Below, piece after piece: positions 31,386 to 51,652 of a stretch of 64,000 nt of DNA (positions are counted from its first letter, which is position 1; each line of letters begins with the position of its first letter). The stretch comes from an uncultured Gemmatimonadota bacterium (lineage in GTDB: Bacteria > Gemmatimonadota > Gemmatimonadetes > Gemmatimonadales > Gemmatimonadaceae), in the NCBI GenBank assembly GCA_902825965.1, contig CADEDA010000015.1, positions 1 through 64,000 of the forward strand, read 5' to 3'. A program made the position numbers and the translations under genes. Under the pieces are notes generated by a model. That model had not been told where the DNA came from, did not search any database, and saw only the letters and a program-made list of their open reading frames with translations.

Positions 31386-31514
31386 CAGCAGTAGCGCACT
31401 TACAAGCCAGCAACGGTTTCAGGCTTCGTTTTTCCACAGGGAATGTTGGCATTATCCATTTGTTTTCTGTGTTGTCGTAAGCGATTACACAGATAGGGAT
31501 TAGGTCGCTTCAAT
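31386..31514. other. AT-rich intergenic region with DnaA-box-like sequences
   Basis: This 129-bp gap is clearly richer in A+T than its surroundings. It holds TTTTCCACA at 31430-31438 (8/9 match to the DnaA box) and TTATCCATT at 31453-31461 (7/9). A perfect TTATCCACA follows at 31543-31551 inside the next gene, all in the same orientation. A weak promoter (TTGTCG, then TAGGGA 16 bp on) may drive the bmp gene but would leave a very short leader. Confidence 0.5.
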
Positions 31515-32507
31515 ATGCGCAAAGTTCTTCGCGCCCTTCTTATTATCCACACCGCGATTCTCGCAACCGCGTGTGGCACAAAGACTTCCGGCGCCGGCGA
31601 CGATTCCGTCTTCAAAGTCGCGCTTCTCACCCCCGGACCGATCTCCGATCAGGCGTGGAACTCCTCCGCCTATCGCGGACTCGAACGCATTCGAGACTCG
31701 CTCGGCGCCGAGATCAGCCACATCCAGACCAAGACACCTGCCGAGTTCGAGGAGAACTTCCGGCAGTACGGTGCCAAGGGCTTCGACCTGGTCATCGGCC
31801 ACGGCTTCGAGTTCCAGGACGCCGCGCAGCGCGTGGGCCCGGAGTACCCGAACACCGTCTACGTGACCACGGGCGGTACAGGCACGGGCAACAACATCGC
31901 CGCACTTTCGTTCGCCTTCGACGAACCGTCGTATCTGGCCGGCATCGCCGCGGCGACCGTCTCGCAGAGCGGCATCATGGCCGTCTTGGGCGGCACCGAG
32001 CTGCCCCCGGTGAAAGCGAGCTTCGCCGCCTTCGAGGCAGGGGCACAGTCGGTTCGCCCGGACATCAAGGTGCTCACCGCCTTCATCGGCAACTGGGACG
32101 ATGCGGCCGCCGGCAAGGAGCAAGCGCTCGCGCTCCTGTCGCGTCGCGCGGACGTGATCTTCCAGAACGCCGACGCCGCGGGCCTCGGGGCGTTCCAGGC
32201 CGTCCGCGAGAACGGCAAGTCCTTCGTCATCGGCGCGAATGCGGATCAGAACGCCGTCGCGCCGGAAGTGACGCTCGGATCCGTCGTCATCGACCTGCCG
32301 CATGCGTTCCTGCTGGTCGCCCGTGAGGTGCAGGAGGGATCCTTCCGTCCGCGCGTGATCACCTACGACACCAAATCCGATGTGGTGCGCTGGGTGCCGA
32401 ACCCGGGCCTGACGGTGATCCGGCCGCACGTCCAGGCGCACATCGAGTCGCTGCGTGCGCAGTTCGTCGATGGGTCGTTCAAGTTGCCGACCGCCGCGAC
32501 CCCATGA
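31515..32507 (+). CDS. BMP family substrate-binding lipoprotein (nucleoside ABC importer)
   Basis: A 330-aa periplasmic-binding lipoprotein of the Bmp/Med/PnrA family, which bind purine nucleosides. The lipobox is ATAC in HTAILATACGTK (Cys about 20). Family motifs are KVALLTPGPISDQAWN, the VIGHGFEFQDAA loop and VFIQNADAAG-like IFQNADAAGLG. Next come a Nif3-like gene (4-nt overlap), an ATPase and two permeases, matching the YufNOPQ-type importer. Ligand (nucleoside) is inferred from the family. Confidence 0.92.
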   Translation: MRKVLRALLIIHTAILATACGTKTSGAGDDSVFKVALLTPGPISDQAWNSSAYRGLERIRDSLGAEISHIQTKTPAEFEENFRQYGAKGFDLVIGHGFEFQDAAQRVGPEYPNTVYVTTGGTGTGNNIAALSFAFDEPSYLAGIAAATVSQSGIMAVLGGTELPPVKASFAAFEAGAQSVRPDIKVLTAFIGNWDDAAAGKEQALALLSRRADVIFQNADAAGLGAFQAVRENGKSFVIGANADQNAVAPEVTLGSVVIDLPHAFLLVAREVQEGSFRPRVITYDTKSDVVRWVPNPGLTVIRPHVQAHIESLRAQFVDGSFKLPTAATP

Positions 32508-48566: not shown

Positions 48567-49673
48567 TCAGTCGACCAGACGCAGCGGCATCAAGAGGCAG
48601 AGGTACTTGCCCGGCTCATTCCAGCCTTCCGGCTCGAGCGTCGATGCCCGCTCCGGTGCACGGAACGTCATGCGCACTTCCTCGGTGGGGAGATAGCGCA
48701 GGATCTCGAGCAGGTACGCGGCGTTGAAGCCGATGTCGAGCGGATCACCCTCGTAGCGGATGGGCAGCTCGTCCTGCGCCTCGCCCAGGTCCGGCGTGCT
48801 CACGGAGAACTTGAGCATGCCCGCGTTGAACGACAGCCGGATCCGGTGCGTCTGGTCCGACGCCACGACACTCATGCGCTTGAGCGCGCTGGTGAACGCC
48901 GCCTTGTCGAGGATCGCGTACTTGTCGTTGTCCTTCGGGATGACCTGTTCGTAGCCCGGGTACGGACCTTCGATCAGACGCGTGTAGACCGACGTGAACG
49001 GTGAGCGGAAGCCCAGGTGATTCTCGCCCTGTGCGACTTCGAGCTCCTCTTCGGCCGGGAACAGCCGGCGGATCTGCTCGAGCGCCTTCGGCGGGATGAT
49101 GAGGTCGGCCTTCTGCCCTCCGGCCACGGGGACTTCCATCTTCGCGAGCCGATGGCCGTTGGTGGCCACCATGCGCATGAGGTCCGACCGCAGTTCCCAG
49201 AGCACGCCATTGAGGATCGGACGGCTTTCCTCGGTGCTCGCCGCGAACGCCGTGTGGCCGATGAGCTTCTGCAGCTCGCCGGAGGGGATGCGCACCGCCT
49301 TCTCGAACTGCACCGCCGGGAAGCTGGGGAACTCCGACTTCGGCAGGCCGAGCAGCTTGAACTTGGAGCGGCCGCACTCGAGCGTGATGCGCTGATCGCC
49401 GGTCGCGGAGATCTTCACCGGCGCCGGCGGCAGTTCCCGTGCGATCTCGCTGAGCTTCCGCGCCGGGATCGTGATCGCACCCACCGCCTCGACATCCGCG
49501 GTGACCTCCGTGCTCACGGCGATGTCCAGGTCCGTGCCGGAGATCCGGATGCCCTTGTCGGTCGTTTGCACGAGCAGGTTGGCCAACACCGGCAACGTCG
49601 TCTTGCTCGGCACGGCCGGCGTGACGGCCGCGAGGCCTTCCTGGAGCTTCTCGCGCGTGATGGTGAAACGCAT
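48567..49673 (-). CDS. dnaN: DNA polymerase III sliding clamp, beta subunit (DnaN)
   Basis: A 368-aa three-domain clamp that tethers Pol III to DNA. The N-terminus MRFTITREKLQEGLAAVTPA and later phrases such as GVLWELRSDLMRMVATNGHRL and RMSVVASDQTHRIRL are diagnostic. The C-terminus ends in the conserved LMPLRLVD-type tail that lines the protein-binding pocket. It lies downstream of dnaA on the same strand, separated by 233 bp holding the origin unwinding element. Confidence 0.96.
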   Translation of the reverse strand: MRFTITREKLQEGLAAVTPAVPSKTTLPVLANLLVQTTDKGIRISGTDLDIAVSTEVTADVEAVGAITIPARKLSEIARELPPAPVKISATGDQRITLECGRSKFKLLGLPKSEFPSFPAVQFEKAVRIPSGELQKLIGHTAFAASTEESRPILNGVLWELRSDLMRMVATNGHRLAKMEVPVAGGQKADLIIPPKALEQIRRLFPAEEELEVAQGENHLGFRSPFTSVYTRLIEGPYPGYEQVIPKDNDKYAILDKAAFTSALKRMSVVASDQTHRIRLSFNAGMLKFSVSTPDLGEAQDELPIRYEGDPLDIGFNAAYLLEILRYLPTEEVRMTFRAPERASTLEPEGWNEPGKYLCLLMPLRLVD

Positions 49674-49906
49674 GCGGGTCAGGGCCGAGGGGAGGTCATG
49701 TGGAACATACGGGGATGCTTCTATCCCTAAAGCTTAATTCTCTAATCGCAGTAGTAGTAGTAAGGTGTGGATTGTGGAAGAACGCGGCAACCCGTTGTCA
49801 TGCCGCGAACTCCAGTCCCGACCTCACGTGCAACTGCGGTGGACTGCCGGTGGGGAACTGTGGAACGCTGGCCGGCGCCCGGCACCCGGCGTGGGAACAC
49901 TGTGGG
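49674..49906. other. oriC: oriC: DnaA boxes, DnaA-trio and AT-rich unwinding element
   Basis: Read on the minus strand, this dnaA-dnaN gap contains two TCCACA-core DnaA boxes in tandem (TCTTCCACA at 49773-49781 and CAATCCACA at 49766-49774). Then comes CC, the repeat TTACTACTACTACTG (49749-49763), and an AT-rich stretch to about 49716. This is the order box - trio - AT-rich seen in the B. subtilis basal unwinding system, with 3'-GAT-5' trios on the plus strand. Further box-like sites are at 49699, 49859 and 49901. Function is inferred from order and spacing. Confidence 0.8.
49749..49763 (-). repeat. DnaA-trio repeat
   Basis: The plus strand reads CAGTAGTAGTAGTAA here, i.e. three or four consecutive TAG/TAA triplets immediately beside tandem DnaA boxes. 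On the plus strand read 3' to 5' these are GAT triplets, the DnaA-trio that guides DnaA onto single strands. Confidence 0.75.
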
Positions 49907-51342: not shown

Positions 51343-51371
51343 AAGCTATCCCTGCCGTGTGGACAAGTCAA
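51343..51371 (-). promoter_or_regulatory. dnaA promoter with DnaA box in the spacer
   Basis: On the minus strand TTGACT (51371-51366) and TAGCTT (51348-51343) are separated by exactly 17 bp. The -35 is 5/6 to consensus, the -10 is 3/6. TTGTCCACA, an 8/9 DnaA box, occupies 51358-51366 within the spacer. DnaA binding there should block RNA polymerase. Confidence 0.7.
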
Positions 51372-51487: not shown

Positions 51488-51652
51488 ATGGGGAAGCCGA
51501 CTTACCGCCCGCGCAACAAGCGTCGCATCAAGACGCATGGGTTCCGCGCGCGCATGGAGACCAAGTGGGGGCGTGAAGTGCTGAGCCGCCGCCGCAAGAA
51601 GGGCCGCAAGCGGCTCACGGTGAAGCTGCCGTCGAAGTACGCTGGCGCCTGA
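51488..51652 (+). CDS. rpmH: 50S ribosomal protein L34
   Basis: A 54-aa, highly basic ribosomal protein. The sequence [19 protein letters not shown] begins it, and [12 protein letters not shown] marks the C-terminal half; both are diagnostic of L34. ATG at 51488 has GGAG 6 nt upstream. It is first in the conserved rpmH-rnpA-yidD-yidC-mnmE cluster, 31 nt before rnpA as annotated. Confidence 0.97.

Follow-up and report, generated by a model that had tools for sequence, protein, structure and literature searches.

The closest described counterpart of the locus studied here is the basal unwinding system (BUS) at incC of Bacillus subtilis, in which DnaA-box#6 and DnaA-box#7 are combined with DnaA-trios (PMC6669920; PMC8287927; PMC10721633). 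Opening of DNA by DnaA from a box and trios has been obtained in vitro for B. subtilis and for six other species. Experiments in B. subtilis revealed that the upstream box (#6) is critical and that the downstream box (#7) is auxiliary. In the same organism the DnaD recognition element (DRE), a single-strand signal opposite the trios, has been put forward as the guide for loading the second helicase (PMC10201434). In the open-access literature we found no paper that pairs the DnaA-trio with Gemmatimonas. We describe here an element between dnaA and dnaN of an uncultured Gemmatimonadota bacterium that is very probably the unwinding region of the chromosome origin and a basal unwinding system of this kind.

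The element lies on contig C15 of a 4.07-Mb assembly in 73 contigs, of which a stretch of 64 kb, hereafter called the window, was analyzed. The gene order rpmH-dnaA-dnaN counts in favor of an origin at this place. The encoded DnaA shares 58-60% identity with the DnaA of named relatives, mostly Gemmatimonadetes MAGs, which places the assembly in the phylum Gemmatimonadota. Coordinates of all features are compiled in Table 1.

Table 1. Features of the dnaA-dnaN gap and its surroundings, in positions of the window.
Feature	Position	Strand	Remarks
dnaN, sliding clamp	48567..49673	-	368 aa; Pfam
Gap dnaA-dnaN	49674-49906		233 bp; both flanking genes on the minus strand
Third DnaA box TGTTCCACA	49707-49699	-	dnaN side, direct orientation
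Weak inverted trio-like run	49718..49729	+	minus strand reads TAG GGA TAG AAG
AT-rich part of the DNA unwinding element	49717..49748 (low end approximate)		after the trios
DnaA-trio array TTA CTA CTA CTA CTG (TTACTACTACTACTG)	49763-49749	-	five trios
DnaA box 2 (downstream) CAATCCACA	49774-49766	-	2 mismatches to TTATCCACA; shares 2 nt with box 1
DnaA box 1 (upstream, probably register-setting) TCTTCCACA	49781-49773	-	2 mismatches to TTATCCACA
dnaA	49907..51304	-	465 aa; DnaA_N, AAA+ and box-binding HTH (Pfam)
DnaA box ATATCCACA	51328-51320	-	dnaA promoter region; conserved in genus
DnaA box TTGTCCACA	51366-51358	-	dnaA promoter region; starts at last base of TTGACT -35-like hexamer
rpmH	51488-51652	+	far side of dnaA

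A first-pass annotation of this DNA had placed a B. subtilis-like unwinding element at 49699-49781, and its description of the parts proved accurate, with one refinement. Two TCCACA cores lie 7 nt apart on the minus strand, and every listed element was found on that strand in the order boxes, trios and AT-rich run. The interval lies inside the dnaA-dnaN gap and is bounded by the third box at its low end and by box 1 at its high end. As had been noted, boxes 1 and 2 are non-canonical. The overlap of their two 9-mers by 2 nt is real, but it is unusual by 1 bp only, since the usual spacing of 8 bp between cores already makes the 9-mers share 1 nt. With CC (minus strand) as the spacer between box 2 and the trios, CAATCCACA lies 2 nt ahead of TTA, while TCTTCCACA lies 9 nt ahead of TTA and 12 nt ahead of the first CTA. 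On the plus strand, which is the strand expected to be bound, the array reads 3'-AAT GAT GAT GAT GAC-5'. By nearest-neighbor energy, only one 70-mer of the 64 kb is less stable than that starting at 49714. A direct downstream box, like the third box here, is enriched in the genus (z 7.9) and in the family (z 5.6) of the window.

We re-implemented the published BUS rule (PMC8287927), which looks for a box with no more than two mismatches to TTATCCACA and, at a distance of 0-16 bp, for three or more 3'-NAN-5' trios in a row. Applied to the 64 kb, the rule gave the site a score of 13 from either box, with 5 for the next best. Both boxes stay within two mismatches and within 0-16 bp of the trios, and there are five consecutive trios against the three required. 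A tandem second box, which is common but not required in the BUS, is present as well, the cores being 7 bp apart. Location in a replication origin is indicated by proxy, through the dnaA-dnaN gap and through GC skew, which switches at dnaA in two complete relatives. The pattern TCCACA-N1-3-TCCACA-N1-8-CTACT did not appear in any of 100 shuffles of the window. The run CTACTACTACT occurs exactly once in the window, and allowing up to one mismatch yielded three matches where 0.02 were expected. In the whole genome the strict box-box-trio pattern is found a single time, and it is likewise single-copy in each of the nine same-genus genomes that possess it.

Upstream of dnaA lie two better boxes, TTGTCCACA and ATATCCACA, which the genus has conserved. 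The true opening site might consequently be sought in the dnaA-rpmH gap, with the block between dnaA and dnaN serving as a regulatory box cluster only. We consider this quite unlikely, since the box-plus-trio rule returned nothing upstream of dnaA and the conserved boxes there directly follow a promoter-like TTGACT, as autoregulation predicts. On the minus strand at 51343-51371 a promoter-like TTGACT...TAGCTT is conserved, and the DnaA box within it reads either TTGTCCACA or TTATCCACA. Judged from this arrangement, the promoter boxes look like a means of dnaA autoregulation. It could also be that the upstream site and the dnaA-dnaN site cooperate in the style of a bipartite origin. Elsewhere in the window, about 18 kb from dnaA and near the skew minimum (33.4 kb), an AT-rich stretch has TTTTCCACA on one side and a perfect TTATCCACA on the other (31430-31551). 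This site was rejected as a rival origin because it has no trio array of note (score 4), and it is possibly a DnaA-titration or regulatory site.

For the comparison, dnaA-dnaN gaps were collected from about 100 Gemmatimonadota genomes of nine families, and controls were taken from Bacillota and other phyla. Most of the assemblies are MAGs, and as related genomes are non-independent, one genome per genus was used to lessen the effect of kinship. Among 15 same-genus genomes, the box-box-trio block is the sole strongly conserved part of the gap and the rest barely aligns. The boxes are followed by CTACT-type trios in all same-genus gaps examined, mostly as an uninterrupted run of at least five and in a few cases as a broken one, so that the trios of the annotated element are indeed kept in close relatives. 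The block recurs across the phylum in otherwise diverged gaps and is kept in most of them. Slippage can generate trinucleotide repeats, and the array could in principle be a mutational or low-complexity repeat without function. The probability of this is negligible, since a functionless repeat is already contradicted by conservation: different families have the array at a constant spacing from the box amid otherwise unalignable sequence, and the genome holds its strict form only once.

Measured from the core of box 1, the first CTA follows at 18 bp, the modal value, in 58 of 82 Gemmatimonadota and in 36 of 48 control gaps, and half of the remaining Gemmatimonadota gaps deviate by one trio (15 or 21 bp). 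Cores spaced by 7 bp occur in the genus of the window and in the genera g13, g20 and g78, which form one clade on the DnaA tree (support 100/98). In the window's genus and in g20 box 1 is still 18 bp from the CTA, and the distance from box 2 has shifted from 10 to 11 bp. In g13 the distance from box 1 is 15 bp (one trio fewer), and in g78 it is 18 bp by eye. The simplest reading is a change in one clade, in which box 2 would have shifted by a single base pair, with box 1 and the trios staying in register. Because box 2 slid and the distance between box 1 and the CTA stayed at 18 bp, it is apparently the upstream box that determines the register. This reading agrees with the B. subtilis experiments on boxes #6 and #7, and the clade thereby offers a natural experiment that points to the upstream box as the register-setter.

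Mapping of GC skew had been suggested in the first-pass annotation as a check. In the complete same-genus genome G011, sampled in 20 x 20 kb and evaluated by a permutation test, the skew switches at dnaA (0.049 to the right, -0.022 to the left; p < 5e-5). The complete same-family genome G105 also switches at dnaA (p = 0.003). In genome G004, on the other side, the half-genome contrast is suggestive (p ~0.06) and the local skew minimum lies 58 kb from dnaA, and in the contig of the window the cumulative minimum at 33.4 kb is 16 kb away. These distant minima can be attributed to the weak skew in the group and overall do not refute an origin at dnaA. The window's own skew, being too weak and having its minimum at 33.4 kb, was discarded as proof of an origin.

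The DnaA protein of the window fits the element. The equivalents of the trio-contacting residues N187, I190, I193, R202 and E228 and of the Arg finger R264 are all identical to Bacillus. Among 99 Gemmatimonadota DnaA sequences N187, E228 and R264 are invariant. The protein also carries the box-reading helix RDHSTV.

By its sequence, the core element is best described as a Gemmatimonadota member of the DnaA-box/DnaA-trio system. Sequence and comparison support this through the elements themselves, their conservation, the 18-bp register, the trio-contact residues of DnaA and the skew switch in relatives. Two points count against it, namely that both boxes have two mismatches while better boxes sit in the dnaA promoter, and that skew is weak in the group. 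DnaA binding, opening and helicase loading at this site are predicted by analogy with B. subtilis and the other tested species. Domain IV of DnaA would dock on box 1, aided by box 2, and an ATP-bound DnaA oligomer would then extend along the plus-strand trios. Two bases of each trio would be gripped between neighboring DnaA subunits, and the resulting stretching would open the adjacent AT-rich segment. The opened segment would then serve for helicase loading, presumably with DciA.

Beyond the AT segment, many relatives carry repeats of the TAGTAG/AAGCAG type, which amount to trios on the opposite strand that face the first array. In Gemmatimonadales, with one genome per genus, an inverted pair lies at +20 to +55 from the first trio in 23 of 49 genera, compared with 8.3 +- 2.5 expected (0 of 500 shuffles). 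The inverted pairs cluster at 26-44 from the first trio, and forward pairs are not enriched there. Among 45 control gaps, mostly from AT-rich Bacillota, a single one contains an inverted pair, with 1.8 expected. The test was devised after the first set of gaps had been viewed and was fixed before it was repeated with 24 new genera from this order, the sole set free of that influence; here 13 genera were positive against 4.2 +- 1.7 expected (0 of 1000 shuffles). Inverted trio runs are thus more frequent in this order than expected by chance. They are strongest in families f2 and f3 (13 of 17), and the genus of the window reaches 9 of 12 against 2.9; in families f4-f9 the pattern is not significant (3 of 15 against 2.2). 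The window itself holds one such pair, TAGAAG (49723-49718), which taken alone is not significant (score 4.5, p = 0.29) and is located where the 23 genera carry theirs.

The far side of the gap also differs among families in its boxes, which are direct downstream boxes in f1 and inverted ones in f4-f8. In f4-f8, which belong to the same class, an inverted far-side DnaA box occurs in 6 of 15 genera with 0.5 expected. In gaps of f4 and f5 (L193, L199, L202) inverted boxes of the GTGGA type lie between the AT segment and dnaN, so that boxes flank the unwinding element. In L211 and L212 (f5, genera g52 and g61) and in L099, a TATGATGACGATCTTCT-type sequence apparently replaces the forward CTA trios, and these may be diverged trio motifs.

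The forward and inverted runs of some relatives are complementary enough to pair, and the CTACTACTACT run with its inverted partner might accordingly form an mRNA hairpin that regulates dnaN instead of a DnaA site. Complementarity within genomes is indeed slightly above that of swapped pairs, yet this excess of z 2.2-2.4 is small and could be explained by shared ancestry. Furthermore, the inverted run of the window is weak, a hairpin would not be expected to keep a fixed 18-bp register to a DnaA box, and in Bacillota the forward run stands without an inverted partner. We therefore rejected the hairpin, which we regard as highly improbable.

If the inverted run is a DnaA site, the element of Gemmatimonadales may be two-sided. 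The inverted run, starting 26-44 nt past the first trio, would give a second DnaA oligomer a grip on the other strand, and with both strands captured by DnaA one helicase could be placed on each strand without DnaD. We put this forward as a tentative proposal that is less likely than not. A mirror-image triplet run on the other strand seems to be undescribed, and a search of open-access papers for symmetric or inverted trios returned nothing relevant. If true, the inverted run bears directly on the loading of the second helicase in bacteria that lack DnaD and DnaC.

With respect to helicase loading, DciA is present in the genome, and the DnaD/DnaB_2 domain (PF07261) had no match in this genome, which is 95% complete, while the B. 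subtilis control was positive. With no DnaD-type loader found, the route of B. subtilis, in which DnaD on the opposite strand brings in the second helicase, would be unavailable. The label B. subtilis-like given at the outset consequently applies to the unwinding element and not to helicase loading. A separate observation concerns a protein of 634 aa that has two DnaA-type AAA+ domains in tandem, without DnaA_N and without the box-binding HTH (L003, 88-1992, minus strand; G000:C40, ~2.6-4.5 kb). Its gene adjoins those of an Arf/MglA-like small GTPase and, by eye, of a roadblock-type protein, and similar matches were obtained in most Gemmatimonadales searched. Possibly, this AAA+ protein is a polarity or motility switch.

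Taken as a box-trio origin signal, the element would extend this system to a poorly studied phylum, Gemmatimonadota. It resembles B. subtilis incC in order, strand and location between dnaA and dnaN, and shares with it the tandem boxes, the 3'-GAT-5' trios, the AT-rich segment and the trio-contact residues of DnaA. The 18 bp from the core of box 1 to the first CTA are those of most Bacillota loci examined. Compared to incC, the boxes are 7 instead of 8 bp apart and weaker, one extra base lies between box 2 and the first CTA, and there is an additional direct box on the dnaN side. The order also has the inverted trio-like run past the AT segment, and the genome has DciA, with DnaD not found. 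The eTrio of Thermotoga maritima, three TAG repeats in the DUE, is alike in its TAG-type trinucleotides and in a single strand bound by DnaA; it differs in relying on a box sequence of its own and on a separate DnaA-oligomerizing region, and it is not known to have an inverted second array (PMC10316083). The DRE of B. subtilis is likewise a signal in single-stranded DNA, located across from the trios on the other strand. However, DnaD reads the DRE, whose sequence is directly complementary to the trios, whereas Gemmatimonadales have their inverted run as an element of its own, past the AT segment (PMC10201434 for the DRE).
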